A stretch of DNA of 20,519 bases, taken from a virus. Position numbers and translations under genes: made by a program. The notes beneath the pieces are model-generated. The model made no database searches. It was given only the letters and a program-made list of their open reading frames with translations, and was not told the DNA's origin. The stretch spans positions 1 through 20,519 of IMG/VR virus record IMGVR_UViG_3300025327_000176. One strand, 5' to 3'. Positions 5,126-19,301 of the stretch are shown here, in pieces. How positions within the stretch are numbered: the first letter of the stretch is position 1; each line of letters opens with the position of its first letter.

Positions 5126-5425
5126 TCAATCCTTTTTGTTGAGTATCGTGACGGCTTCCAGCTCCATCACTCTCAGCCCGTTAAACACCTCGCGGCGATC
5201 GGCCGCATCGATCTGTAACATATCCTGCACCAGCGGCACGGCTTCGTATCTGAACCCGATTACCGCGCCGCGGCCGGAGACGTACCACTGTGTTGACATC
5301 GCCGCGAACATCTCGGCCGCTTGCGCATTTTCCAGCCATAATTCCTGCCGTGCCTCTTGCAGTGGCGGGATGCCAAATTTCATCCGCCCGGCGTTGGCTG
5401 CTTTATTATCGAGGTCACCCGCCAA
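5126..5425 (-). CDS. Tail assembly chaperone, T part (DUF1799), made as a -1 frameshift G-T fusion
   Basis: The 99-aa region shows the DUF1799 pattern: a short N-terminal linker, KFGIPPL, a central MFAAMSTQWYVSGRGAVIGF block, and a C-terminal helix (REVFNGLRVMELEAVTIL). In lambda the corresponding T domain binds the tape measure and is made only as gpGT by -1 frameshifting. Here the only nearby start is a TTG (5425) without a Shine-Dalgarno site. This frame is open back to the slippery run at 5449-5458, exactly -1 relative to the G gene. I therefore read it as the C-terminal part of a 232-aa G-T fusion (5823 to 5126), not an independent gene. The tape measure gene starts just downstream. Confidence 0.85.
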   Translation of the reverse strand: MAGDLDNKAANAGRMKFGIPPLQEARQELWLENAQAAEMFAAMSTQWYVSGRGAVIGFRYEAVPLVQDMLQIDAADRREVFNGLRVMELEAVTILNKKD

Positions 5426-5458
5426 CAGGCAGCGGGTGACCTCGATCAGTTTTTTTTT
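5408..5458 (-). promoter_or_regulatory. Programmed -1 ribosomal frameshift signal: slippery A9-C plus 15-bp hairpin
   Basis: On the coding strand nine A then C (5458-5449) contain the canonical heptamer A AAA AAC in the right register (5455-5449). TGA of the G frame follows at once (5448-5446). A perfect 15-bp inverted repeat comes next: ATCGAGGTCACCCGC (5446-5432 in coding sense) pairs with 5422-5408 across a 9-nt loop. Only two bases separate heptamer and stem base, closer than usual, so the outer pairs are probably melted when the ribosome pauses. A -1 slip leads into the open DUF1799 frame. Confidence 0.9.
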
Positions 5459-5823
5459 CGCGCCTCGGCATAACCTTGGAAGTAGGCAAAAAAGATGCTG
5501 TGCATGGCATCGGGATATTTGGTCAACAGCAGACGCATGCTGTCCTTGCTGTATGGCAGGTCAAAGCCGTCCCAGCTCACCACCACCTCATCGAACAGAT
5601 CGACGATGTTGGCCACCTTCCGGGCACGGATACATAATTTCAGGAATTCCCACTGGCGGATCAGCCAGCTTGTTTTGACCGCGGACACCATCATCAGCAA
5701 AGACATTCTGCGTTTATGGTCCAGCGTACGAAAAACGAAGGTTGTCGCAGCAGGCGCTTCGGCACCAGGAACGACGATTTTCACTTCCGCCTCGAACGTC
5801 GGATCGGCAATCAGCTTGATCAT
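5446..5823 (-). CDS. Tail assembly chaperone G-like protein
   Basis: A 125-aa protein between the tail tube genes and the DUF1799/tape measure pair, the place of lambda gpG. Seen: a short beta-like N-terminus ending in VPGAEAPAATTFVFRTLDHK, then helical segments (KTSWLIRQWEFLKLCIRARK) and a C-terminal YFQGYAEARKKN. The last codons, AAA AAA AAC before TGA, form a slippery sequence, and a fraction of ribosomes should shift -1 into the T frame. Family members keep tape measure and tube subunits soluble and poised during tail assembly. Sequence similarity to gpG itself is not obvious; position and the frameshift signal carry the call. Confidence 0.85.
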   Translation of the reverse strand: MIKLIADPTFEAEVKIVVPGAEAPAATTFVFRTLDHKRRMSLLMMVSAVKTSWLIRQWEFLKLCIRARKVANIVDLFDEVVVSWDGFDLPYSKDSMRLLLTKYPDAMHSIFFAYFQGYAEARKKN

Positions 5824-8107: not shown

Positions 8108-8130
8108 TGCATGTTCTCCTGTGTTTCCCT

Positions 8131-8167
8131 CACCCTAACCCTCTCCCGCAAGCGGGCGAGGGGATGA
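8131..8167. repeat. REP-like palindrome between capsid and cement genes
   Basis: CCCTC-T-CCCGC-AA-GCGGG-C-GAGGG forms an imperfect hairpin (8139-8162) preceded by CACCCTAA. It is a typical host intergenic palindrome. It shares its CTCCCGC-AA-GCGGG core with the copy at 16812-16850, which is in the opposite orientation. No T-run follows on the coding strand, so it is not an obvious terminator for the operon. Confidence 0.8.
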
Positions 8168-8178
8168 AGGTTGGGTTT

Positions 8179-9519
8179 TTAAGCGCCTGGGTTTTTTTGA
8201 AGCGAGCGGTAGTCCAGCGGTGCCACACCTGCATCGATGCGCACCTTGAATTCCACGCCATCCACTTCCCAGCCGCCTTGCTGCTCCAGCGTCGGGGTAT
8301 GGTTGCCGTCGAGATAGCTGACTTCGATGGTGTCGGTGACACCGGCATCGGCAGCGCCGTACCAGGCCGTCGCAGAAGCGGTATCCAGACGCGCATCGGA
8401 GATCACGTCGAACAGGCCGCGCATGGTGTTGGGCACGGTGTTGTTCTTGGTGGATGCGCCGACTTCGAATTCGGAATTAGCCACCACGCGCGCCGCGCCT
8501 TCCAGCCCGACCGGGGTGATGATATGCGCGAGGCGGATGTTAAGCGGGCCGCCGCCGGTAGCTTGCCGAGCCATCGCGACGCGCACGTTATCCGTGCTGG
8601 CGGTGCTGAGCACCGTGCCGGTGCCGACCAGGTTGCCGTGGGTGGCGGTGTGGAACAGCGCCACGCCGTCCGCCATGTTCGGGTTGCCGGTCAATACCGC
8701 ATAGACCAGATCGCCGATGGTGCGGATCGCGGCGCGGCCCATGCGCATCGGGATCTTGCTGAAGGCGTCCAGATCGTCGTTGATGATGGTCTGGCGGGTC
8801 AGCGCGAACAGCTTGCCGTAGGTGGCGAGCTGCACGGTCTCGCCGCGTTCGCCGACGGTGGCGTATTTGTATTCCGCGCCATCCAGCACCTTGTCCAGCG
8901 CAGGGAAGGAATTGAGATCGAGACGCTTGCCGACCTTGAAGTCGCCGAGCGTGCCGACCGAGCACCATTTCTGGAAGGTCTCTTCGGATTCCTCAAAGCC
9001 TTTCAGCATGGCTTTTTCGGCGATATTGGACAGCAGCAGCGGGAAGTCGCTGGTGGAGGTGAAGGCGGCGGCCACTACATCCATCTTGCTCTTGCCGCGC
9101 ACGTCGATGCGCGCCTGGGCCAGACATTCGCGCGCCATGTCCATCAGCGAGTAGCCGCGATAGTGATTGCTGCGGTCGTCTTTTTCCATACCGGCGCGGG
9201 CCAGGATGGCCGACATCGCCAGGGTGCGGAACTTGTCGCGGCTGTCTTCCAGCGAGACGACATAACCGCCCGCGATCGGGGCAGACCCCTTGCCCAGGAG
9301 TGCCAGCAATTGGGTGTTGGCGCTCTGCGCAGTACAGGTCACGTCGTTGCTGCACGTGGCCAGCAAAGCGGGCACGCCCTCGACGCCGCTGAACTTGGCA
9401 AAAGCGGTTTGAATATCGCTGCGGCGCAGGGCTTCTCCGGCCAGCGTGGCGGCCTGGATTTCAGCTTCGGTTCTGGCGGCAGAGGTTGCGATTGCCGCCG
9501 TTTGGATTACATCAGGCAT
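8179..9519 (-). CDS. Major capsid protein, free form from an internal start (nested, same frame)
   Basis: Inside the fusion, ATG 9519 (Met239, MPDVIQTAAIATS) is preceded by AAGGAG with a 6-base spacer (9526-9531). That is a better ribosome-binding site than the one before the full-length start. The 446-aa product begins exactly at the change from the Ala-rich linker to the capsid domain. A capsid needs hundreds of capsid subunits but few proteases, so a separate, stronger start is reasonable. That both products are made is inference, comparable to the nested C/Nu3 genes of lambda. Confidence 0.6.
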   Translation of the reverse strand: MPDVIQTAAIATSAARTEAEIQAATLAGEALRRSDIQTAFAKFSGVEGVPALLATCSNDVTCTAQSANTQLLALLGKGSAPIAGGYVVSLEDSRDKFRTLAMSAILARAGMEKDDRSNHYRGYSLMDMARECLAQARIDVRGKSKMDVVAAAFTSTSDFPLLLSNIAEKAMLKGFEESEETFQKWCSVGTLGDFKVGKRLDLNSFPALDKVLDGAEYKYATVGERGETVQLATYGKLFALTRQTIINDDLDAFSKIPMRMGRAAIRTIGDLVYAVLTGNPNMADGVALFHTATHGNLVGTGTVLSTASTDNVRVAMARQATGGGPLNIRLAHIITPVGLEGAARVVANSEFEVGASTKNNTVPNTMRGLFDVISDARLDTASATAWYGAADAGVTDTIEVSYLDGNHTPTLEQQGGWEVDGVEFKVRIDAGVAPLDYRSLQKNPGA

Positions 9520-10233
9520 GTTGATCTCCTTGGAGGTTGCTGCGGCGGCTGCCGCATTGATTGCCCCGCCGGAACCCGGCAAGGATTTGAACCGCGCGGC
9601 AAGTGCCGTGCGATCAAAACTGGCGGCCAAGGGCATGGCCGTGACGATAGAATTAACGAAGTTTCCGGCCAGCGCCTCATCGGCGGTGTACCAGTGGTCT
9701 TCACCGTCGGTGAGCAGCGCGAGCATGTCTTCCGGAGTGCCGCCGGTCTTGGCAGCGTAGCTGGTGGACATCGCGCTGGCCCAGGTGTCGAGATAGTCGG
9801 CGAAGTCGCGCATGTCGGCGCTGTTGCCCATCGACATGCCCCAGGGCGCATGAATCATCAGCAGCGCGTTCTCGGCCATCTCCACGGTGTCGCCCGCCAT
9901 CGCGATCAGGCTGGCGATGCTGGCGGCGACGCCGTCGATCACCACGGTCGTGGCCGCCTTGTGGCGCTTGATGGCGTTATAAATTGCGATGCCGTCCGAG
10001 ACCGAACCGCCGAACGAGTTGATGCGCACCGTGATCTCGTCGGCATCCAGCGCCATCAGTTCCTGTACGAAATCTTTAGCCAGCACCGAATCGCCATACC
10101 AGCTTTCGCCGATGTCGCCGTAGATCAGGATCTCGGCGGATTTGGCTCCCTGCGCAACAGGTGCGCGGGCACGGATGCTGTACCACTTCAAAGAGGATTG
10201 AGGATTGAGGACTGAGGACCGGGTTGCTGGCAT
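8179..10233 (-). CDS. ClpP-type prohead protease fused to major capsid protein
   Basis: A 684-aa fusion. Residues about 33-200 form a ClpP-like serine protease: ILIYGDIG, INSFGGSVSDG, Ser105 in GVAASIASLIAMAG, His128 in LLMIHAPWG, and Asp176 or Asp179 before the YTADEAL helix. An Ala-rich linker (about 222-238) leads into a Mu gpT-like major capsid domain (about 239-684; e.g. GAEYKYATVGERGETVQLAT and ALTRQTIINDD). The protease would cut scaffold and capsid proteins during maturation. I use ATG 10233 (GGAG 8 bases upstream) rather than GTG 10242. Residues 5-17 come from a heptamer repeat (10193-10220). Protease-capsid fusions are known in lambda-like prophages; here internal initiation may also release the capsid part. 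Confidence 0.92.
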   Translation of the reverse strand: MPATRSSVLNPQSSLKWYSIRARAPVAQGAKSAEILIYGDIGESWYGDSVLAKDFVQELMALDADEITVRINSFGGSVSDGIAIYNAIKRHKAATTVVIDGVAASIASLIAMAGDTVEMAENALLMIHAPWGMSMGNSADMRDFADYLDTWASAMSTSYAAKTGGTPEDMLALLTDGEDHWYTADEALAGNFVNSIVTAMPLAASFDRTALAARFKSLPGSGGAINAAAAAATSKEINMPDVIQTAAIATSAARTEAEIQAATLAGEALRRSDIQTAFAKFSGVEGVPALLATCSNDVTCTAQSANTQLLALLGKGSAPIAGGYVVSLEDSRDKFRTLAMSAILARAGMEKDDRSNHYRGYSLMDMARECLAQARIDVRGKSKMDVVAAAFTSTSDFPLLLSNIAEKAMLKGFEESEETFQKWCSVGTLGDFKVGKRLDLNSFPALDKVLDGAEYKYATVGERGETVQLATYGKLFALTRQTIINDDLDAFSKIPMRMGRAAIRTIGDLVYAVLTGNPNMADGVALFHTATHGNLVGTGTVLSTASTDNVRVAMARQATGGGPLNIRLAHIITPVGLEGAARVVANSEFEVGASTKNNTVPNTMRGLFDVISDARLDTASATAWYGAADAGVTDTIEVSYLDGNHTPTLEQQGGWEVDGVEFKVRIDAGVAPLDYRSLQKNPGA
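9517..9531 (-). promoter_or_regulatory. Internal ribosome-binding site for free major capsid protein
   Basis: AAGGAG, six bases, then ATG, all within the coding sequence at the protease-capsid domain boundary. The residues encoded there (SKEIN) are in a linker where coding constraint is low, so the motif may be kept for translation. Confidence 0.65.
10193..10220. repeat. Four tandem 7-bp repeats at the 5' end of the protease-capsid gene
   Basis: GAGGATT, GAGGATT, GAGGACT, GAGGACC follow one another without gaps. They are translated on the minus strand as the Ser/Leu/Asn/Gln-rich start of the fusion protein. A second heptamer pair (GCAGGAT twice) lies at 10318-10331. Such 7-bp repeats look like host intergenic repeats. 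Confidence 0.75.
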
Positions 10234-10235
10234 GA

Positions 10236-10261
10236 CGCACACTCCACATGTTGAGTGTGCG
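10236..10261 (-). promoter_or_regulatory. 9-bp hairpin covering the Shine-Dalgarno of the protease-capsid fusion
   Basis: CGCACACTC and GAGTGTGCG pair perfectly across an 8-nt loop. On the mRNA the GGAG that serves ATG 10233 lies at the loop-stem junction, and the stem ends two bases before the ATG. Folding would hide the ribosome-binding site and lower translation of the full-length fusion. Regulation is inferred from structure only. Confidence 0.6.
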
Positions 10262-10272
10262 CAGTGTCGCGG

Positions 10273-10316
10273 GGCGGCTGTCTCATTTACAGGGGGAAGA
10301 TGAGACTATTTTTTAA
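10273..10316. repeat. 44-bp direct repeat with dyad, copy A (upstream of protease-capsid gene)
   Basis: Identical to 16877-16920 except for one base (A for G). It contains the dyad GTCTCAT-N13-ATGAGAC (10280-10286 and 10300-10306) with a C5/G5 tract in the loop, and an A/T run at one end. On the coding strand the A-run comes first and the dyad then sits about 40-50 bases before the protease-capsid start. I do not recognise the element; a regulator binding site is possible. Confidence 0.85.
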
Positions 10317-10343
10317 GGCAGGATGCAGGATGAAAATGCGCCG

Positions 10344-10532
10344 CTATCGATAAAGCTCGTTCCATTTCGGGTGATGGCGGCGATCACGCCGGGTGATGAC
10401 GACGCCACTGGTTGTGGTTGACGGCGCGATCGGTGGAGTAACAACGATATCTAAAATAAAACCGGCAGTCGCCACGGCCAGCGCGCCATACCCAAACCCC
10501 CGTACCGCGATCGATCTTGCATTCAGGCTCAT
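10344..10532 (-). CDS. Small hydrophobic protein of the tail-fibre cassette
   Basis: A 62-aa protein. The N-terminus (SLNARSIAVRGFGYGALAVATAGFILD) is hydrophobic and Gly/Ala-rich, enough for one membrane or hydrophobic core segment (about residues 12-32). The rest is Thr/Pro-rich and then basic (TRRDRRHHPKW). Its ATG overlaps the TGA of the 591-aa gene (ATGA), so it belongs to the same operon. Small proteins with a similar AVxGFGxGxxAV start accompany tail-fibre genes in other prophages, as I recall; the function is unknown to me. Confidence 0.65.
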   Translation of the reverse strand: MSLNARSIAVRGFGYGALAVATAGFILDIVVTPPIAPSTTTSGVVITRRDRRHHPKWNELYR

Positions 10533-12304
10533 GTGCGCGTCACCGTGACGGTTCCGCCCACCTCAGAGATTGTCTGCGACACATCCCCGGCGGTGCGCGA
10601 GGTCGGCGTGATTACCACCGGCGTGCCGGCGACAACCCCATCCTGCTTGGCCATGTCCATCAGGCGGGCGAGTTCAGTGGTGAGTTCGGTGCGCACGGCC
10701 TGGGCGTTCTGCGGCGCACTCGGCAACGCCTCCACGGTTGCTTCAATGGTATCTGTTGCCAGTTCTATTGCAGCTAGGCTAGCAGCCTGCCCCGCCGTAA
10801 GCCCGGACAGCAACTCAACTCCTGCGTTGTAATAAGCCCGCGACCAAACGTGCCGCCGTATCGAGCCGCGCCCATCCTCTGCATCGTAATCCCAATAGAT
10901 ATGCAGCACCATCCAGGTGTTGAAAGCGCCGATGGTCGTTGCGGCAGCGTATCTGCCGTTATGTCTCCCGCTGATATCTTCCAGTAGCGCCAGCGGTGTT
11001 GGCTGTGCTGCTTGCAGTGCGCCGGTTGCTGGGTTGAACCACTCCACCGTGCTTTCCTGATACGCCTCGAACTTGACCACGTTATTTCCCAATCCGGTCA
11101 GCGCCAGTCCGGTAGTAGGATGTTCGAGATTGATCGACCACGTTTCCGTGACTCCGAATACCACGGTAATCGCTCTGGCAATATCCGTCTCGCTTACCTG
11201 CCCCAGCGAGATTGTCCTTGTTGCGTAGAGCGTGACTGCCAGCGACAAATCTATCTCGGACGCTTGCGCCAGCGCAATTGTGATCGGAGTGGGCGATGAG
11301 ATTGTTTGTGCGGCATCTGTCTCGGTCACTTGCCCTACGCCGAGCGGCTGATTGGAGTACGCTTCCAGGATAACCTGCGCAACATCCAACTCTGTGACCT
11401 GACCAATCGCGATGGTCGTGGCGCTATACACGGCAATGGACTGCGCCAAGTCTGATTCTGCAACCTGCCCGATAACAAGGGTGACGCCCTGCAACGCTGC
11501 AATCGGGCGCGCAAGGTCTGTTTCGGTTGTTTGCCCGACTGCGATAGTTAGCGCGCCGAGAACCGTGGTGATAACTTGCGCGGTGTCTGCTTCACTGGCT
11601 TGCGCGACATCGCGGATAGCGTTTTCGCTTAGGGTGATGACTTGCGCGGTGTCGGTTTCTGTTGCTTGTCCTAGCGGCGGCGCACCATCGTTAAAAGTAA
11701 TGGTGGTTGAAAGCTCAACCCACGGGCACTCGGTGCCAGAACCACCCCCTGATGTTAACGGTAGATCGGTATAGTCCTGATTGTCTATCGCTAAATCAGC
11801 ACTAGCGCCTGCCGCCGGCGTTACGAATCGGTGCCCTAGCTCAATTACAACTCTGTCACCGGCCAGCGCGTTAACTGTGGTATGAGCAACGTTATTGACG
11901 ATGCGCGTTGCCCCAGTGGTAGTTGCCTCGATGTCAGCAACTAGCGGAATACGTAAGACACCTCTAACCGTGTCTGTGTCGCCTACCATGACACGTACAC
12001 CAACCGCAAGATACGCATCGGCGAGCGTGGAACTTTCTCTGACTATAATCGCAGCCGCTACTGTGCCCGATATGGTCTGGTTAACATCCAGTGGCGGTGA
12101 CACCCACTGGCGCAGGCACTGGTAGCCGATGTCATCAGTGGTACCCTGCCAGACCTGATTAACAAGAGCGACGCCGCCTGATCCAGTTTTAGTAAATGCG
12201 CTTGGATAACGTGCGAATGCAGGGGCGCTATACGCCCACCCCGTGCTAACGGTAGGTGCGGAAGGCGCTGAGCCAGCAACCGGCAGATAAAATCTAGTTG
12301 TCAT
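10529..12304 (-). CDS. Tail-fibre-associated protein with eight 22-23-residue repeats
   Basis: A 591-aa protein. Residues 1-200 form a beta-rich N-terminal domain (TTRFYLPVAGSAPSAP...). Residues 212-389 hold eight repeats of the form GQxxExDxAQxI followed by 9-11 mostly hydrophobic residues. Residues about 390-470 are a compact domain (ETWSINLEHPTTGLALTGLG), and the C-terminal part is helical (ELLSGLTAGQAASLAAIELA) with a Thr/Val-rich end. The repeats could form a stalk or beta-solenoid. ATG 12304 overlaps the tailspike stop by 11 bases, so the two are made together. A virion surface role is likely from context; no enzymatic motif is seen. Confidence 0.75.
   Translation of the reverse strand: MTTRFYLPVAGSAPSAPTVSTGWAYSAPAFARYPSAFTKTGSGGVALVNQVWQGTTDDIGYQCLRQWVSPPLDVNQTISGTVAAAIIVRESSTLADAYLAVGVRVMVGDTDTVRGVLRIPLVADIEATTTGATRIVNNVAHTTVNALAGDRVVIELGHRFVTPAAGASADLAIDNQDYTDLPLTSGGGSGTECPWVELSTTITFNDGAPPLGQATETDTAQVITLSENAIRDVAQASEADTAQVITTVLGALTIAVGQTTETDLARPIAALQGVTLVIGQVAESDLAQSIAVYSATTIAIGQVTELDVAQVILEAYSNQPLGVGQVTETDAAQTISSPTPITIALAQASEIDLSLAVTLYATRTISLGQVSETDIARAITVVFGVTETWSINLEHPTTGLALTGLGNNVVKFEAYQESTVEWFNPATGALQAAQPTPLALLEDISGRHNGRYAAATTIGAFNTWMVLHIYWDYDAEDGRGSIRRHVWSRAYYNAGVELLSGLTAGQAASLAAIELATDTIEATVEALPSAPQNAQAVRTELTTELARLMDMAKQDGVVAGTPVVITPTSRTAGDVSQTISEVGGTVTVTRT
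11138..11671 (-). repeat. Coding repeat array: eight GQxxExDxAQ units
   Basis: Units begin at residues 212, 234, 257, 279, 301, 324, 346 and 368 of the 591-aa protein. The core Gln-x-x-Glu-x-Asp is invariant in all eight; the first Gly is Ala in units 2 and 7. The DNA copies have diverged, so the array is not a recent duplication. Confidence 0.85.
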
Positions 12305-13832
12305 AATACGGTATCCACTTGGTCACGCCGCCAACGGAGATTTTGATCTTCCCTGCATAAGCGCCAAGCGCGGCAGTGCTTAATATCCCGTCTGCGGTTT
12401 CGGTAAGCATGAAATAATCGCCTACCACTTTCAACGCGGGAACTCGGTCATGAGGTATTGCCCCGCCAAGGGCTGACCCAAGATAATCGTAGAACAAGTC
12501 GGCACCGCTGGTAACAGATACGTTGATTGGATTGTCTGTTCCACTCAACCCATAAATCCTGCACCCGATAACTTTGCTACCATTGGCAACAATACCTGCC
12601 CCGCCTGCTGTCCCTTGTACCAGTAAGCCATAGAATGTACACGTCTCTACTGGCTTCCCTGCTGCACCTTTCTTGGCGCTGTCAAAGGTAACGCTACCGC
12701 CAATAGAAAAACAGCCAAAGAATTGATTGTCGTCTGCCGCCCAAATTTCCAAATTTGACCAAGAGCAGCTATAAAAGGTGCAGAAGCATGTATTAGTCCC
12801 TCCGTAGCTTGCGCTTGCGCCACTTAGCAACCACGTGCCAACCACTCTGCAACGGGTATACCTATTGGCATAAACGCAGTTGATTCGCGAGAAACCAGGA
12901 TTAGGGTAATCAGCTGAATTAGGGGTCAGTGATTCACAATGCCAGGCAAATCTGATGTCGCTGACATCTTTAGCCTGCACGACTATATTTTTATAATCGC
13001 AGGTAACTGTCGCGGCCTCGTAAATTACCGAACCTGCTCTGAATCGTCCATCAACGCATAGGTTATGTAGAAAGGCACCCCAGATGTCCTGCGTAGTATT
13101 TCCGATTACAGAGATGAACCGAATCGACTGCGGCGCACCAACATACACCAGCATCGTTCCTGTGGCGTGGTTGTCCGCAATGACGCTAGGTGCGTAATAG
13201 TATGGATAATATCCCCACAGGCTACCTACCCCAATATCCGCACCCGCCAGCCCTTTGTAGGATGTGGTCAGACTGATTGTCAGAGTGGAGAGATAAATTC
13301 TATTATCAAAATCAACGCGCGTAATACCTGGAGATGCGTTCATTGCAGCAACCGCCGCAATAATAGCTGCCCCATCGTCAGTGCCAAATACGAACTGCGC
13401 AGTAGTATCACTAATCGTTGACGATATAGCCATCTGCACGTGAGCACTATCAACGAACGCTACAATGGTCGTGTTGAACGAGGCATCTTTACTCAACCCG
13501 CCGGGTGCGGTGCTGTGATAAGCGACGTTTAATATCTTGCCAACATCGCCGACAGCAAAGGTGCCTGACGGAGCGGTGGCAATATCGCTGCCACTGGTAA
13601 CGGAGCAATCAAAAAACCATTTGCCATCACCAACTGCGCCGTAAGCTGATACGTTGATTGAGAATGTAGTTGAGCCACTACCACTGCCCTCTCCTGGCGG
13701 GCCTGGCGGGCCAACAGGGCCAACAGCGCCATCCGCTCCGGTAGCTCCTGTGGCTCCAGTAGCACCTGGAGCACCCGCAGCCCCAGGTAAACCATTCAGC
13801 CCAGCAAGAGCCGCTCTTAGCGACATATCCAT
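12294..13832 (-). CDS. Tailspike/tail fibre with collagen-like stalk and pectate-lyase-like beta-helix
   Basis: A 512-aa protein. Residues 11-49 are thirteen uninterrupted Gly-X-Y triplets (GLPGAAGAPGATGATG...), a collagen-like trimeric stalk. A Gly/Ser linker leads to FSINVSAYGAVGDGK (about 57-71), the opening motif of pectate-lyase-3 superfamily beta-helices found in tailspikes that bind or cut surface polysaccharide. Many short beta strands with Cys, Asn and Gly turns follow, and the C-terminus ends GKIKISVGGVTKWIPYYDN. No catalytic pair can be assigned, so depolymerase activity is open. The gene is more AT-rich than its neighbours, a sign of recent acquisition. Its place between portal and capsid genes is unusual. 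Confidence 0.85.
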   Translation of the reverse strand: MDMSLRAALAGLNGLPGAAGAPGATGATGATGADGAVGPVGPPGPPGEGSGSGSTTFSINVSAYGAVGDGKWFFDCSVTSGSDIATAPSGTFAVGDVGKILNVAYHSTAPGGLSKDASFNTTIVAFVDSAHVQMAISSTISDTTAQFVFGTDDGAAIIAAVAAMNASPGITRVDFDNRIYLSTLTISLTTSYKGLAGADIGVGSLWGYYPYYYAPSVIADNHATGTMLVYVGAPQSIRFISVIGNTTQDIWGAFLHNLCVDGRFRAGSVIYEAATVTCDYKNIVVQAKDVSDIRFAWHCESLTPNSADYPNPGFSRINCVYANRYTRCRVVGTWLLSGASASYGGTNTCFCTFYSCSWSNLEIWAADDNQFFGCFSIGGSVTFDSAKKGAAGKPVETCTFYGLLVQGTAGGAGIVANGSKVIGCRIYGLSGTDNPINVSVTSGADLFYDYLGSALGGAIPHDRVPALKVVGDYFMLTETADGILSTAALGAYAGKIKISVGGVTKWIPYYDN

Positions 13833-13864
13833 TAAGAGTTCCCCCCCGCGTTAGTCACCGAACC

Positions 13865-14335
13865 TTAGCTTGCGCGGAAGAAGCCTGCTGCCGCGATCTG
13901 TGCGGTTATATCGCCGCCGTTCGGGGTAACAACGAAATCGTGCTGCGTGCAGGGAACAATATTCGCGTCCGTGCCAGCAGTAGAATCGCTGTCATAGCTG
14001 ATGGTCAGGTCGGTCCAGTTGCTCCCCGCAGATACCGCAGTCCAGGTCTGGTCTGGAATATCCAGGTCAACGCGGTCGTTGGTGTCGTCCGGCGCGAAAG
14101 CCACGATGTCGGCATCGGTCAGCACCTTGCGCGCATAGCCGCTGTTGGTGGCTTCGGCGACGTTGGCAATGGTTTCAAGCGCGGCGTGGTCGTCAGCGTC
14201 AATACAGGCCGCGTCCGTAGCCGAAATTACCCACGCTGTAACTACCAGCACGGCGTTAGTCGGGTCGCTCAAGTCCACGCGATTGTAGAGTTCCGCCACA
14301 CGTCCCTTGGCAATGTTGAATACGAGATCAGCCAT
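13865..14335 (-). CDS. Conserved virion-type protein of unknown function (156 aa)
   Basis: It begins ADLVFNIAKGRVAELYNRVDL, a pattern I associate with a family of small phage proteins encoded beside tail-fibre genes. A mixed alpha/beta body (VLVVTAWVISATDAACIDAD) and an Asp/Thr-rich C-terminus (DSDSTAGTDANIVPCTQHDF) follow. The strong site GGAGGTG lies just before ATG 14335, and the gene overlaps the upstream one by 8 bases. Position suggests a tail-fibre attachment or decoration role; I cannot assign it further. Confidence 0.7.
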   Translation of the reverse strand: MADLVFNIAKGRVAELYNRVDLSDPTNAVLVVTAWVISATDAACIDADDHAALETIANVAEATNSGYARKVLTDADIVAFAPDDTNDRVDLDIPDQTWTAVSAGSNWTDLTISYDSDSTAGTDANIVPCTQHDFVVTPNGGDITAQIAAAGFFRAS

Positions 14336-14876
14336 GATTCACCTCCAGCGCACAGTTGTAGTAGTTCTGCATAACGTAGCCAGAAGGATTTTCCGCATCG
14401 GGGGATGTCTTCCCCACGTGCTTCTCGGTCACATGCTTGCGAGCAGCCTTGCCGTCACCGTCGTCCACCAACTTTTCGCCACAGTGTCGGCAATACCGGC
14501 CTGGTTCCTGTTTGATAGCAAACACAACATCGCCGTCAAGACCGTGAATTGTTATCTTCACGCCCTTGCGTACCAGCCAGCCTTCGGCTTCTCCGCCAGT
14601 CAGGAAGTTCTCTGTGAACTTCTGCTCCTCGTCCTGCGCAACCAGCTTGCTAAGCTGCACCTTCGCGCGCGGCTTGAGACTGGAGATGATCTTGCGCCTG
14701 ATAAGCTCGTCAAAGATCATCGCGGCAGAGATTGCGCCCTGCGGTAAAGTTCCCTGCTTTTGCTTCAGCTCGAAGAATGCAATCACCATCAAGGCATCGT
14801 CCGAGTTAAGCACGGCCTCCCGTGCGAGCACCTCGCCAGAAGGTGATATTGGGTCGTGGAATACTTTTATTTGCAT
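14328..14876 (-). CDS. Unknown phage protein with CxxC...H...H zinc-binding motif
   Basis: A 182-aa protein. It starts MQIKVFHDPISPSGEVLARE. Residues 25-80 look helical (DDALMVIAFFELKQKQ), and a small beta region around 95-122 includes VKITIHGLDGDVVFAI. Cys129-x2-Cys132 and His148-x4-His153 (CRHCGEKL...ARKHVTEKH) form a zinc-finger-like site. AAAGGAG is 7 bases before ATG 14876. It sits between the portal-coupled 36-aa ORF and the tail-fibre genes. It could be a moron or a regulator carried by the cassette. I do not recognise a family. Confidence 0.7.
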   Translation of the reverse strand: MQIKVFHDPISPSGEVLAREAVLNSDDALMVIAFFELKQKQGTLPQGAISAAMIFDELIRRKIISSLKPRAKVQLSKLVAQDEEQKFTENFLTGGEAEGWLVRKGVKITIHGLDGDVVFAIKQEPGRYCRHCGEKLVDDGDGKAARKHVTEKHVGKTSPDAENPSGYVMQNYYNCALEVNHG

Positions 14877-14891
14877 TTTGATTCTCCTTTA

Positions 14892-15002
14892 TTAAATGGT
14901 TGTTGATTCATTGACGGGCAAGGGCGAGGCGCGCAGAGATATGCAGTAGTCCACGTATTGCCGGTAGGTGCGGCCTGCTTTAGGGATGATGTAGGTGTTC
15001 AT
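14892..15002 (-). CDS. 36-aa ORF coupled to the portal gene
   Basis: The product begins MNTYIIPKAGRTYRQYVDYC and ends in SPLPVNESTTI. Its ATG overlaps the portal TGA (GAATGA), and the next gene follows by 15 bases. The Pro-x-Ala-Gly-x-x-Tyr-x-x-Tyr-x-x-Tyr-Cys spacing looks protein-like rather than random. I have seen very short ORFs of this style near phage structural genes but can give no function. Confidence 0.5.
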   Translation of the reverse strand: MNTYIIPKAGRTYRQYVDYCISLRASPLPVNESTTI

Positions 15003-16543
15003 TCGACAGCATCTTGTGCAGACGTATCCACCGGCAAGGGCGCGGCGGGCGGCGCCTGTTCGTTGGCCAGGTCGGAACCGAACACCAGCTCTTTCGCTTT
15101 GGCTTCGCTGCGAAATGCGGCGATCTGTTCGATGACATCGCGCGGATTCCCACCGCGTTTACGGATGACTTCGACTTCGGACGCGAAGCCATCCTGCACC
15201 AATTGATGCCAGGCGTTGGCTTCTTTGAGCGGGTCGATCCACGGCATGGATTGCCCGACGTACAGGCAATCGTCCTCGCTGTATTGCTCCAGGTCCCTGG
15301 GCATGGTCACCTGACCGGAAAGGTGCGCGGCCAGCACGAATTGCTGCCACACCGGCTGCACAAATTGGCCGACAAATTCGTCGGTGAGCACGGCGTAGTG
15401 GATCCACTGCTCGACCAGCTCCTGACGCTGAGCGGAGTAGGTGCCGTTGTAGTCGCGCGCCAGGCTGGAATAGCTGGCGCCGAGACCGGCGGCAATAGCG
15501 CGCAACTGCCCCTGGCGGAAGGTGACGACGTTCGGGTTAGGGCGGTTCGAATCGATCAGGCCGATCTCTTCGCCCATGCCGAGATTTTCGATGATGGTGC
15601 CGGGCGACAGGCTGAGTTCGCGCGGCAATGCGTTGCCTTCCGCGTCGCGGTCGGTGATGGTGGCCGGGTCGTACATATCCGGCGAGCCCTTGCGCACGTA
15701 GGCGGTGAGCGCGGCGGCGATCTTGGCGGCGATGCGCTCGCTTTCTTCGTAGTCCTTGATGTCTTCCAGCCGGGTGATGACGCTGGCGAATCCGGATACG
15801 CCGCGCATCTGGCCGATGCGGTCCACCGAAGCGAGTTGCAGCATGCGCGACGAGTCGATGTATTTGAGATCGTTGGAGCGGGTGAGCGTCAAGCTGCCAT
15901 TTGGGAAGGTCTTCCATACCCAGAAGCCGGTGGGCTTACCCCAGCTATTGCGCTGCACGCCCTGCTGGATGCCTTTGCCGGGATCGTGATAATCCATCGG
16001 CACCATGTCCGCCTCGAACATCTCCAGCGAGAACGGCACGCGCGTGCCGTGGTCGAGGAACGGCACCGGCCCGGTTAATGATTGCGTGAAGACTTCGCCG
16101 TCGCGGAACCAGCTCGCGGCCATCATGCGCTGCACCTTGGCCCAGTGGTGGCGCTGCGTCACTTCCGGGCACAGGCACCAGTCGCGCCACGCATCGCGCA
16201 GCGCCTTGGCATAGTCGGTATGGATGCTCCCGTCTTTCTTGCGCGGCTGCGGCTCGATGCCGATGCCGGTGGGCCCGACCACGTTGTTGACCAAGGTGCG
16301 CAATGCGCCGCGCGCGATGTCATGGTTCTGTTCCAGGTTGCGCGCCAGTGTGCGCAATGCCACCGCGCCCTGCTGCACTTGCAGATCGGGCGAGCGCTGG
16401 TCTTTGGAGAATTTGCGCAACCGCGACGGCTTGGCTGCTTCGTACTGGCTGAGCACGCGCCGCGCGTTGATGCGGCGCAACCCGGCGGACGGGCTGAGCC
16501 AGGCGACCAGTTGATCCAGTGGGTTCAATTCGACGCGGTTCAT
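14999..16543 (-). CDS. Portal protein (lambda gpB family)
   Basis: A 514-aa protein of the lambda-type portal family (Phage_portal_2), which forms the dodecameric ring at the packaging vertex. Seen: LRTLARNLEQNHDIARGALR, then LVNNVVGPTGIGIEPQPR, WCLCPEVTQRHHWAKVQRMM, a WFRDGEVF segment, HVFE-like FEADMVPMDYHDP, QMRGVSGFASVITRLEDIKD, and LGASYSSLARDYNGTYSAQR, all hallmarks of the family. Length is near lambda gpB (533). ATG 16543 overlaps the gpW-like stop (GTATGA). It is followed by a non-standard cassette, not by the protease. Confidence 0.95.
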   Translation of the reverse strand: MNRVELNPLDQLVAWLSPSAGLRRINARRVLSQYEAAKPSRLRKFSKDQRSPDLQVQQGAVALRTLARNLEQNHDIARGALRTLVNNVVGPTGIGIEPQPRKKDGSIHTDYAKALRDAWRDWCLCPEVTQRHHWAKVQRMMAASWFRDGEVFTQSLTGPVPFLDHGTRVPFSLEMFEADMVPMDYHDPGKGIQQGVQRNSWGKPTGFWVWKTFPNGSLTLTRSNDLKYIDSSRMLQLASVDRIGQMRGVSGFASVITRLEDIKDYEESERIAAKIAAALTAYVRKGSPDMYDPATITDRDAEGNALPRELSLSPGTIIENLGMGEEIGLIDSNRPNPNVVTFRQGQLRAIAAGLGASYSSLARDYNGTYSAQRQELVEQWIHYAVLTDEFVGQFVQPVWQQFVLAAHLSGQVTMPRDLEQYSEDDCLYVGQSMPWIDPLKEANAWHQLVQDGFASEVEVIRKRGGNPRDVIEQIAAFRSEAKAKELVFGSDLANEQAPPAAPLPVDTSAQDAVE

Positions 16544-16773
16544 ACGGGATTATCGAATCTGGCCACAGACATCGTCAGCCCGCCGATGGTGGGCGCCTGG
16601 TTGGCCCGTGCGACTTCGGCAACGGCGCGCTGTTCCCATTCTTTTCGCCCGGCGATGATGGCGGGCAGATCTTCCATGCGCAGGCGCCGGTCGCCAAAGC
16701 TGACTTCCTTGCCCTCCAATAACGCGGTTTCAGCGACCAGATATTTGGCCAGCATCTCGGTAGCAGTGCTCAT
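16540..16773 (-). CDS. gpW-like head-tail joining protein
   Basis: A 77-aa protein, near the 68 residues of lambda gpW and lying between terminase and portal as W does. The pattern fits: an N-terminal helix (STATEMLAKYLVAETALLEG), the KEVSFGDRRLRMED hairpin, a second helix (LPAIIAGRKEWEQRAVAEVA) and a flexible tail. I choose ATG 16773, with AAGGG 8 bases upstream, over an upstream ATG at 16854 that lies in repeat DNA. The stop overlaps the portal start. gpW joins the portal ring to FII after packaging. Confidence 0.85.
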   Translation of the reverse strand: MSTATEMLAKYLVAETALLEGKEVSFGDRRLRMEDLPAIIAGRKEWEQRAVAEVARANQAPTIGGLTMSVARFDNPV

Positions 16774-16939
16774 CGGCGAACCCTTGTATGGTTTTATGCT
16801 TCTCTCGTTCGCCTCCCCTCCCGCTTGCGGGAGAGGATTGAGGAGAGGGCGCATTCAGGTTTGCCGAATTTACCGAGGCGGCTGTCTCATTTACAGGGGG
16901 AAGATGAGACTGTTTTTTAACCTGATACTTGCCGGCCAT
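16730..16939 (-). CDS. Possible 69-aa ORF overlapping repeats and gpW 5' end
   Basis: ATG 16939 has an excellent site (AAAAGGAG, 7-base spacer) and directly follows the Mor-like stop. The product begins MAGKYQVKKQSHLPPVNETA and then runs through the 44-bp repeat and the REP element into the gpW frame, giving low-complexity Ser/Pro/Gly residues. It may be what remains of a small gene interrupted by repeats. In the other 44-bp copy this frame has a stop, so the repeat itself is not conserved as coding sequence. Confidence 0.3.
   Translation of the reverse strand: MAGKYQVKKQSHLPPVNETAASVNSANLNAPSPQSSPASGRGGEREKHKTIQGFADEHCYRDAGQISGR
16812..16850. repeat. REP-like palindrome upstream of gpW
   Basis: CTCCCGC-TT-GCGGGAG (16818-16833) is a perfect 7-bp hairpin with AGGATTGAGGAGAGGG following. 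It is the same family as 8131-8167 but in opposite orientation. It lies in the gap between the Mor-like and gpW-like genes. Confidence 0.8.
16877..16920. repeat. 44-bp direct repeat with dyad, copy B (between Mor-like and gpW genes)
   Basis: It matches 10273-10316 at 43 of 44 positions, in the same orientation. The dyad GTCTCAT-N13-ATGAGAC lies at 16884-16890 and 16904-16910. It starts 22 bases after the Mor-like stop and lies about 100 bases before the gpW start. Confidence 0.85.
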
Positions 16940-16941
16940 TT

Positions 16942-17244
16942 TCATTCTCCTTTTAGCATCCGATAAAATTGCGCCTTGCTGATGCGATGTTTGGCGCATA
17001 CTTCTGTCCTGTTGCACCCATTAAAATCTTTCAGCACTTCTTCCTTGCGCGCCAGGCAATCTATTTTTGCAACATATACTTCACATCCTCCATCCTGTTG
17101 ACGATCAATGATGGCCCAGCGTTCAACGACCGGCCAGCGCAATTGCTGCTCGATCTGCTCGGCGCAGTTGTCACTGAATGAGTTTTCACCGATCGCATGT
17201 TGAACGGCTTTGAGGACAAATCTAAGCAACGCTTCACCGCTCAC
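16942..17244 (-). CDS. Mor-like transcription activator
   Basis: A 100-aa protein. The C-terminal half follows the Mor/C activator pattern of Mu-like phages: GGCEVYVAKIDCLARKEEVL, then KDFNGCNRTEVCAKHRISKA and QFYRMLKGE, i.e. a beta strand of the VYV(P/A)K type, an acidic F-x-G-x-N turn, and a helix-turn-helix (TEVCAKHRISKAQFYRML). The N-terminal half carries a dimerisation-like EQIEQQLRWPVVERW segment. I set the start at GTG 17244: it overlaps the terminase TGA (GTGA) and has AAGGGG 6 bases upstream. In Mu, Mor switches on the middle promoter. Here, inside the packaging operon, it may control late genes. The Pro of the usual VYVPK is Ala. Confidence 0.7.
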   Translation of the reverse strand: MSGEALLRFVLKAVQHAIGENSFSDNCAEQIEQQLRWPVVERWAIIDRQQDGGCEVYVAKIDCLARKEEVLKDFNGCNRTEVCAKHRISKAQFYRMLKGE

Positions 17245-19301
17245 TTGAATCCCCTTTGCGCCCAATCGTCCGTGGCGAAACTGCTGCGCGCTGCGCCAGG
17301 TTTGGCGGCGCGGCTGGGTACAGGCGTCTGCATTTTGCTCGGCACACCGGCGACCAGCTCGTCCAGCGTCAGTTCTTTGGGCTGACTGAACAGGTCTGCC
17401 ATCAGCGGCTGCACCTTGGCTTCCAGATCATCCCAGAATTTCGCGCTTTTTTTATGCAGATCGAAATATGTCTCCAGCCAGATGGTGTACACGCCGCAGT
17501 CCCAGGCCTCAACGCGCTTCCTGATCGCTGTCCAGGAGGACTCTTCGCCGCGCGTGGTGCGGCGGGTGGTGCGCGCTTCGCCGGTGAATTGGCGGAACCA
17601 TTCGTCGCTGAGTTCTTTACTGAAGTGGACGTAGCCGGGGCCCGGCTTGGTAATCTGCAAGCGGCCATGCAGTAGGTCTTTGGCGTGGTTTGTCCCGACC
17701 CACCACAGCACCAGGCCGTTTTTGCGCAGCCGCCCCTTCCAGTCGATATCTACTTTGCTGGCACCGTCCTTGATGTGTTTCTCGCGCCCGCTGCGCCCGC
17801 CGATGGCGAACACTTTACGGCGATTATGTTTGGCTACCCAGTTGTACACGGCGTGGGTGTTGTGGCCGCGCGTGTCGATCGCCGCGCCGGTGATGCGCAG
17901 GCGGGATCCGCTGGCGTGCATGAATTCGGTCTCGAACAGGAATTCGTCCATATCCGCCCACACCTCCTCCTCGTCCGGGTTGCCGAAAAAAATGCGGTGC
18001 GCGACGGTCCACATTTCGCAGCCGCGCCCATAACCCCACACGCCGCACTCCAGCCGGTTCGGTTGTGTGTCGATCCCAGCCAGCAGCAGCACTGCGCCGC
18101 GCGGCACGCGCTCCAGCAGGAACGGCTCGGCGCGCGCGCGCAGTTCGTTCTCGTCGGTCTTTTCGTATTCTTCGGCCCAGTAATCGCCGCGAGTGGTGTT
18201 GACGAAGGCCTGTAGCTTTTCTTTTTTGCCCTCGCCGCTTTCACGGTTGGCGGCAATGAATTCGCGCACGATGCCGGCCCATGATACGTTCGGGCTGTAG
18301 GCGCTCCAGGTGTGGAAAGCGACGCACGCCGGCGGGCGAATGATCTCGCCCTGCGGGTTGCGGAAGATGCCCTTGTTGTCCAGCGTGGTGCCATCATCGG
18401 CTTGATAGCGTCCGGCCGTGTCCAGGTCGATGCCCAGGTATTGCGCCTGCGAGATCAGCGCGCCGCAGTGCGGACACAAGTGGCGGACGGTTTCGGGATC
18501 GTCGTCATGCCACTTGAAACCGCTCATCTCTTCTTTGCCGCCCCACACCAGCGGATGGTAGCCGCCACACTCCGGACAGGGAATGCAGGGTTGCAGGAAA
18601 ATGTCCGCGTCGCGCTCGCGTTTTTCGATGTTGGAAAAACCCTTCAGCTTCGGCGTGCTGCCGAATACCATCTTGGGAAAGGTCGCGCCCTCGACGCGCT
18701 TGGCCGCCAGCGTGCCGGGATCGCCTTCCTTCTCGATGTTCGCATCGAACGCATCGTATTCGTCCAGCATCGCCACGTCCGCGCTCAGCCGCCGGTAGTT
18801 TTTCGCGGCCTTCCCGCCCTTGATGTGCGCCATGCTGCCGAGGAACTTCTTCGCCTGCAGCGTGTTGTCCTTGTCGCGTTTCAGGTAGGCAGGGAACACC
18901 ATTTCCATCACCGCCACGTCGCGCAGCATCGGGTCCAGTTCGGTCTTGACAAACTCGTCGCGGTCATCATCGGTCGGCTGCCACAACACCTGGTTGCGCC
19001 GCTTGTGTTGCGCGAAGTAGCCCATCGCCGCCAGCAGAATCTTGGTATATCCGACGCGAGCCGACTTGCGCCAGATGATCTCGCGGATATCGTCGTTGCT
19101 GATACACGCCATGATCGCGCGCTGGAACCACCACGGCGTCCACCGCTGCTCAACATAGGACGATTCGACGGACAGATAGAAATGCTCCCGCGCCCATTCG
19201 TCCAGCGTCATCGGCGGCGGCACCCCGAACGCACTCATCCCTCGCGCCAGGTGTTGCTCCAGCGTCGGGAGAATGAAACGAGTGTGCTCGGATAGATCCA
19301 T
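17241..19301 (-). CDS. Terminase large subunit (lambda gpA family)
   Basis: A 686-aa protein (lambda gpA is 641). The Walker A-type motif of this family is K79-SARVGYTK-87, followed by ILLAAMGYF. Walker B is VAMLDEYDAFD with Asp180-Glu181. A zinc-ribbon-like pair, C242-x2-C245 and C276-x2-C279, lies in the middle. The nuclease domain starts with LLAGIDTQPNRLECGVWGYG, where Asp411 matches the metal-binding Asp of gpA; a second Asp lies in ITGAAIDTRGH. The enzyme cuts concatemers and drives DNA into the prohead. ATG 19301 overlaps the small subunit stop (TGATG). The Gly-rich TTRRTTRGEESSWTAI stretch near the C-terminus is normal for the family. Confidence 0.96.
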   Translation of the reverse strand: MDLSEHTRFILPTLEQHLARGMSAFGVPPPMTLDEWAREHFYLSVESSYVEQRWTPWWFQRAIMACISNDDIREIIWRKSARVGYTKILLAAMGYFAQHKRRNQVLWQPTDDDRDEFVKTELDPMLRDVAVMEMVFPAYLKRDKDNTLQAKKFLGSMAHIKGGKAAKNYRRLSADVAMLDEYDAFDANIEKEGDPGTLAAKRVEGATFPKMVFGSTPKLKGFSNIEKRERDADIFLQPCIPCPECGGYHPLVWGGKEEMSGFKWHDDDPETVRHLCPHCGALISQAQYLGIDLDTAGRYQADDGTTLDNKGIFRNPQGEIIRPPACVAFHTWSAYSPNVSWAGIVREFIAANRESGEGKKEKLQAFVNTTRGDYWAEEYEKTDENELRARAEPFLLERVPRGAVLLLAGIDTQPNRLECGVWGYGRGCEMWTVAHRIFFGNPDEEEVWADMDEFLFETEFMHASGSRLRITGAAIDTRGHNTHAVYNWVAKHNRRKVFAIGGRSGREKHIKDGASKVDIDWKGRLRKNGLVLWWVGTNHAKDLLHGRLQITKPGPGYVHFSKELSDEWFRQFTGEARTTRRTTRGEESSWTAIRKRVEAWDCGVYTIWLETYFDLHKKSAKFWDDLEAKVQPLMADLFSQPKELTLDELVAGVPSKMQTPVPSRAAKPGAARSSFATDDWAQRGFK

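Follow-up and report, generated by a model that had tools for sequence, protein, structure and literature searches.

The closest described counterparts of the locus reported here are the Mor- and C-dependent promoters of phage Mu. At the Mu middle promoter, Pm, a dyad bound by Mor replaces the -35 box and is accompanied by a -10 box and by an A/T-rich UP element just upstream; the activator site spans 16 bp, with 5-bp inverted repeats, and is centred at -43.5 (PMC4390567). Mu C drives several separate late promoters, including those of lys and of head genes, whose -10 and -35 boxes are both non-consensus (PMC4461284). Structures are available for Mor (PDB 1rr7, 9l0y) and for C (PDB 9l0x, 9vw8), and the cryo-EM entries for the two proteins contain four activator chains each, so that a site longer than the footprint of one dimer is not implausible. 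The lambda-like phages F10 and mEp043 offer the second comparison: their head modules follow the order terL-gpW-portal-protease/capsid, their genes overlap without gaps, and they contain neither a Mor-like gene between terL and gpW nor dyads.

The window, a virus-derived stretch of 20,519 nucleotides that makes up positions 1 to 20,519 of IMG/VR record IMGVR_UViG_3300025327_000176, contains lambda-like head genes with a GpA terminase, a phage type that differs from Mu. Gene order is that of F10 and mEp043, to whose portal and capsid proteins those of the window are 40-45% identical, but two repeats and a gene for a Mor-like protein are added, so that the minus strand reads terS, terL, Mor-like gene, copy B, gpW, portal, a fibre-like block, copy A and a protease-capsid fusion. 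Unlike in Mu, where the activator is the product of a middle gene, the regulator gene lies here inside the late block, between terL and gpW. Each repeat is very probably a late promoter with a built-in site for the adjacent Mor-family protein, which would switch it on. The features are as follows (all on the minus strand):

19810-19301, minus: terS
19301-17241, minus: terL
16942..17265, minus: Mor-family regulator; HTH helices at residues 86-93 and 97-105, specificity residues A98, Q99 and R102
16911..16920, minus: UP-element-like A-tract (TTAAAAAACA) adjoining the copy B dyad on its upstream side; this register is A/T-rich in 46 gpW and 26 capsid copies
16884..16910, minus: copy B dyad (GTCTCATCTTCCCCCTGTAAATGAGAC), predicted Mor-like binding site of promoter P-W
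16890..16895, minus: TGTAAA within the copy B dyad, a degenerate -35-like hexamer 17 bp upstream of the -10 box; TAGAAA in most relatives
16867..16872, minus: -10 box of copy B, TAAATT, at positions +12 to +17 counted from the dyad end; transcription predicted to begin near 16860
16540..16854, minus: gpW head-tail adaptor, first target gene of copy B; conserved start at 16773
14999..16543, minus: portal protein, target operon of copy B
10344..14876, minus: insert between portal and copy A, with 182-aa, 156-aa, tail-fibre-like, 591-aa and 62-aa ORFs; outside the conserved unit and absent in L028, L131 and G002
10307..10316, minus: UP-element-like A-tract (TTAAAAAATA) adjoining the copy A dyad on its upstream side
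10280..10306, minus: copy A dyad, predicted Mor-like binding site of promoter P-cap
10263..10268, minus: -10 box of copy A, GACACT, of the NA[AC]ACT type; transcription predicted to begin near 10256
8179..10242, minus: fusion of a ClpP-type protease with the major capsid protein, the target of copy A

The two 44-bp direct repeats (copy A, 10273-10316; copy B, 16877-16920) share one orientation and 43 of their 44 bases, and each carries the dyad GTCTCAT-N13-ATGAGAC with a C-rich loop and an A-run; coordinates and alignment agree in this with an earlier note on the same DNA. Read in the sense of the minus-strand genes, the repeat is TTAAAAAAYA-GTCTCATCTTCCCCCTGTAAATGAGAC-AGCCGCC, the A-run lying upstream of the dyad and the C-rich centre being carried by the gene strand itself. 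No further copy of the dyad is present elsewhere in the 20.5-kb record, in which a reversed control pattern gave no matches. The gene positions also confirm that one copy precedes gpW/portal and the other the protease-capsid gene, and that 22 bases separate copy B from the end of the Mor-like ORF (16942-17265). The same note had the repeats flank a gpW-portal-adhesin block, which is correct in that the stretch between them includes the "adhesin" genes; the repeats as such, however, go with gpW-portal and with capsid. Only gpW and portal are bracketed in L028, the closest relative (capsid 74%), with two identical 35-bp copies, in L131, also among the closest, and in the 44-kb contig G002, both with two copies.

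The distribution of the element in other genomes is that of a phage sequence. The exact repeat pattern had no match in 84,980 species genomes, and the copies sit before phage head genes, which is the outcome that the earlier note had said would favour an operator over a repeat of the host; a host repeat of the REP or MITE kind was discarded on this count. Relaxed-pattern matches (seven in species genomes; L012, an RNA-phage-like contig) had nothing in common beyond the pattern itself and were rejected. A search of the window against Rfam returned no match, and blastn of a 47-mer against phages and plasmids only partial matches at chance level. The pattern with its C-rich centre is present in nine IMG/VR stretches, five of which have flanks like those of this phage, while in the rest, whose flanks are unrelated, the element likewise sits ahead of portal or capsid-protease genes and keeps its orientation. 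When the region before gpW and that after the portal gene were compared in 80 portal relatives and 25 Mor-like relatives, all of them metagenomic or prophage contigs, with cross-genome controls, a 26-27 bp dyad of the same build was found in more than 40 other phage contigs before gpW-portal, capsid-protease or both, always in gene orientation. Its half-sites (GTCTCAT, GTCCCAT, GTCCGGT, GTCCAGT, GTCCACT, GTCGCAT, GTGACAT, GTGAAAT and others) agree between the two arms of a dyad and between the two copies that a genome carries. Among 50,697 named phages, the portal homologues are below 60% identity, so that no studied member of the group is at hand, and this arrangement of regulator and sites was not found in the open-licence literature, where the Mu papers were found.

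The search of 17 phage contigs, mostly near-complete (727 kb besides the window), gave as good copies only the two before the head genes and, in five of the phages, a third one located 13-18 kb downstream with the same -10 register and followed by holin and endolysin genes. These copies were scored with phage-specific half-sites, a single 27-letter pattern with three mismatches having missed the 26-bp forms, and the window being a 20.5-kb fragment, the lysis counts come from the 17 contigs. No extra site, even with loose scoring, was seen in five other phages whose endolysin genes lie downstream of the head block, and the lysis copy is thus patchy across phages. The predicted promoters are therefore several and separate, as in Mu-type late control, with gpW and capsid in pairs and lysis in 5 of 17.

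A scored pair of dyads was available in 27 contigs, in which arm identity is 94% within a genome and 69% between genomes. The centres, which would not be contacted, are 90% identical within a genome and 68% between genomes with the same half-site, a likeness that suggests homogenisation, by gene conversion, between the two promoters of a genome. This likeness and the direct orientation are what would be expected if the repeats served to exchange or excise the enclosed 6.6 kb, as homology arms (one of the readings offered in the earlier note) or as site-specific recombination sites, a reading to which we give hardly any credence. The interval always encloses gpW and portal, with nothing else in some genomes and with a large insert added in others, whereas the sites stay with the gpW and capsid starts; third copies occur before lysis genes; and arms would need neither a -10 box nor a matching regulator. 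Multi-kb inserts are found in the same portal-to-capsid slot in L031, G017/L056 and L085, where the dyad still adjoins the capsid gene, which supports a linkage of site and capsid gene and speaks against repeats that are the ends of a mobile 6.6-kb unit. With several relatives carrying an insert there, the slot (10344-14876 in the window, with fibre-like genes; also L031, G017/L056, L085 and L098) has the look of a cargo hot spot.

The gene between terL and gpW encodes a Mor-family protein in nearly every dyad-bearing phage. Of 23 aligned members, 21 match the PF08765 profile at E <= 0.01 (best, 5.8e-14), and a profile of the family matches Mu Mor (E 3e-11) and Mu C (E 3e-7). The protein of the window alone falls below the Pfam cut-off (E 0.031) and matches phrog_532, late transcriptional activator, at E 0.001; its assignment comes from relatives, 53-54% identical to it, that pass, such as that of L028 (E 3e-9). 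Its structural model has the C-terminal helix-turn-helix of the PF08765 family, with helices at residues 86-93 and 97-105 (pLDDT about 93-97), of which the latter is the second helix of the motif, and the first six Foldseek matches, though weak, are to Mor or C. A 12-residue stretch of this protein (WPVVERWAIIDR; gene at 16942-17265, minus strand) is missing from nearly all aligned relatives and lowers its family score.

Protein and dyad occur together. Using as threshold the 99th percentile of portal-internal windows (about 25.4), a strict dyad is present in 44 of 67 loci with a Mor-like gene and in 5 of 29 without it (p 1.5e-5), in an automatic table that errs both ways (a Mor-like HTH was missed in L113, and the match in L124 is probably a terminator). 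About a third of the 23 Mor-bearing loci without a strict-score dyad show a degraded one by eye. Furthermore, the two vary together. When 90 alignment columns from 44 non-redundant Mor-like proteins were compared with the dyad half-site, the three columns sharing most information with it were residues 102, 98 and 99, with z-scores, which ignore relatedness, of 8.5, 8.1 and 5.5 (next, 3.6). Bases 5-6 of the half-site go with residue 102, R or K being found with CA, E with GG or GC, and Q or D with AG; base 4 goes with residue 98, A or G being found with T, and S or T with C, a rule to which L057 and L058 are exceptions. On the tree of the portal proteins these states change 13-18 times, close to shuffled labels, and in independent contrasts on this tree, which are few but allow for kinship, seven of eight exchanges between T and C at base 4 are accompanied by A versus S/T at residue 98, while the residue-102 rule for bases 5-6 holds in nearly all of 13. 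Such covariation between helix and dyad is what a protein-DNA contact would predict, and it is predicted by none of the rival readings.

Covariation of the two arms could also come from an RNA hairpin in the leaders of the gpW and capsid messages, acting in processing, stability or translational control. That reading was favoured once the stems were seen to covary between genomes, and it also agrees with the C-rich centre kept on the sense strand and with the location of the dyads 11-130 bases ahead of the genes. We now regard it as very improbable, and it was given up on the helix covariation and on the -10 register described below, because the stem changes follow a DNA-binding helix and because the -10 box comes after the dyad, which leaves the dyad upstream of the transcript made there. 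Moreover, the non-Watson-Crick pairs between the arms amount, on the sense strand, to 5 G-U and 20 A-C, the reverse of what a stem in the sense RNA would allow.

When the copies are aligned by the final base of the dyad, what follows is near random except at fixed positions, with A at +13 in 68 and T at +17 in 70 of 72 copies. The 46 non-redundant gpW copies have T+12 in 37, A+13 in 43 and T+17 in 44, and the 26 capsid copies A+13 in 25, A+15 in 25, C+16 in 22 and T+17 in all 26. From their sequence, the conserved positions are taken to be -12, -11 and -7 of a sigma-70 box, which would be TANNNT in gpW copies and NA[AC]ACT in capsid copies. For this register the window copies score 3/3 and 2/3 when the gene strand is read and 0 when its complement is read. 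The layout on the gene strand is thus an A-tract, a dyad of 26-27 bp, 11 bp and the -10 box, and, if +12 after the dyad is -12, the dyad spans about -50 to -24, with its centre at about -37. Conservation within the dyad centre is asymmetric (T at -11 in 78 of 87 copies), in keeping with a directional promoter, and the right part of the centre contains the -35-like hexamer, TAGAAA (TGTAAA in the window), a poor one at 17-bp spacing to the -10 box. In the upstream A-tract, A is found at -3 and -5 in 25 of 26 capsid copies, and the gpW copies are A-rich, so that, by base composition, an A/T-rich UP-type element lies directly upstream of the putative activator site. A generic sigma-70 scan found no promoter at either window copy, as expected of promoters that need help, and a sigma-70 -10 box in the absence of a good -35 box is what characterises Mu-type Mor/C-dependent promoters. 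In about 20 gpW copies the gpW start codon lies 23-25 bases after the dyad, at the predicted transcription start, and the gpW messages of those phages are therefore likely to be leaderless.

On the opposite strand the same A-tract gives a T-run after the dyad, in both window copies and in many relatives, and the element could be read as an intrinsic terminator on the plus strand (hairpin followed by TATTTTTTAA) that acts on antisense transcripts. This is extremely improbable: the terminator scan did not report the dyads, in L006, L141, L085 and others the T-run, possibly a by-product of the A-tract, is weak or absent, and neither the -10 register nor the helix covariation would be accounted for. 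The candidate was set aside when the T-run proved not to be conserved.

Taken as promoters with a binding site, as the earlier note had proposed among its readings, the repeats agree with the helix residues that track the dyad, also in the contrasts, with the fixed register of the -10 box and with the presence of sites only before gpW-portal, capsid and sometimes lysis genes. The sign of the control is a separate matter. By position, the right half-site would fall between -35 and -10, which is unusual for an activator and compatible with a repressor, and a dyad covering the -35 box and half of the spacer is in the classic place for repression; together with a -35-like TAGAAA at 17-bp spacing, which suggests a core promoter able to work alone, this would fit a Mor-like protein that represses or tunes down constitutive gpW-portal and capsid promoters. 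We consider this unlikely, because the studied members of the family, Mu Mor and Mu C, are activators, the -10 boxes are poor (capsid copies are devoid of T-12), the -35 hexamers match at 3-4 of 6 positions, and the A-tract is conserved and recalls the UP element of Mu Pm. Activation is thus the sign that we infer, from the family and from the weak core promoters.

As in Mu Pm, a Mor-family HTH regulator is combined with a dyad in place of a good -35 box, a G/C-rich centre, a sigma-70-like -10 box and an A/T-rich element directly upstream. Unlike in Pm, the site is 26-27 bp long instead of 16, has 7-bp specificity arms instead of 5-bp repeats, and is centred near -37 instead of -43.5; because of this geometry the elements are best termed putative late promoters of a variant kind, and membership of the Mu promoter type is not claimed for them. 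Mu Mor serves a single middle promoter, in contrast to the two or three late structural and lysis promoters predicted here, which rather recall Mu C, one small member of the family serving several separate late promoters (lys, I, P, mom), head and lysis included; the sites of C are described as upstream of -35, whereas the dyad reaches here into the spacer too. In the proposed mechanism, the Mor-like protein would be made from the terminase transcript, residues 98, 99 and 102 of its recognition helix would read the 7-bp half-sites, and the bound protein would, by analogy with what Mu Mor and C do, enable sigma-70 polymerase to initiate from promoters with little activity of their own. The gpW-portal and capsid genes, and in some relatives the lysis genes, would then receive additional transcription, presumably late, beyond that of the terminase transcript.

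The regulator, its DNA sites and its target genes could in this way be connected by sequence analysis alone for dozens of phages whose named relatives, as far as found, do not exceed 60% identity, and Mu-type late control would be extended to lambda-like head modules. Promoters in these places suggest why gaps set the portal and capsid genes apart in this group, while the genes of its relatives overlap. A wider proposition, whose chances we judge to be evenly balanced, is that a large uncultured phage group possesses a Mor-family code readable from one helix (residue 98 for base 4, residue 102 for bases 5-6), with binding across the -35 box and the spacer in a geometry unlike that of Mu and a leaderless gpW start in about 20 phages, and that regulator and promoters co-evolve as an insulated late switch. 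The phages also provide a natural series of regulator-site pairs, more than 40 in number, in which the contact residues covary and which could be useful for the study of DNA reading by Mor and C and for orthogonal transcription switches.

Other elements were observed in the window. Two inverted copies of a repeat (CCCTCACCC...CTCTCCCGCAAGCGGG), 79% alike, are located at 8127-8168 and 16808-16849; the latter lies between copy B and gpW and lengthens the gpW frame at its N-terminus (start at 16854, versus the conserved MSTATEML at 16773). A hairpin (CGCACACTCAACATGTGGAGTGTGCG; 10236-10261, minus strand) lies directly before the capsid ATG (10233) and has a ribosome-binding GGAG in its 3' arm, and a CTGAGGG...CCCTCAG-like hairpin is found at the same place in L066, L067, L075, L078, L086, L100 and L106, which suggests translational control of the capsid gene. 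Finally, at 5408-5460 (minus strand), between the ORFs 5823-5446 and 5425-5126, a run of nine A is followed by a TGA stop and a 16-bp hairpin, an arrangement reminiscent of the programmed frameshift in tail assembly chaperone pairs.
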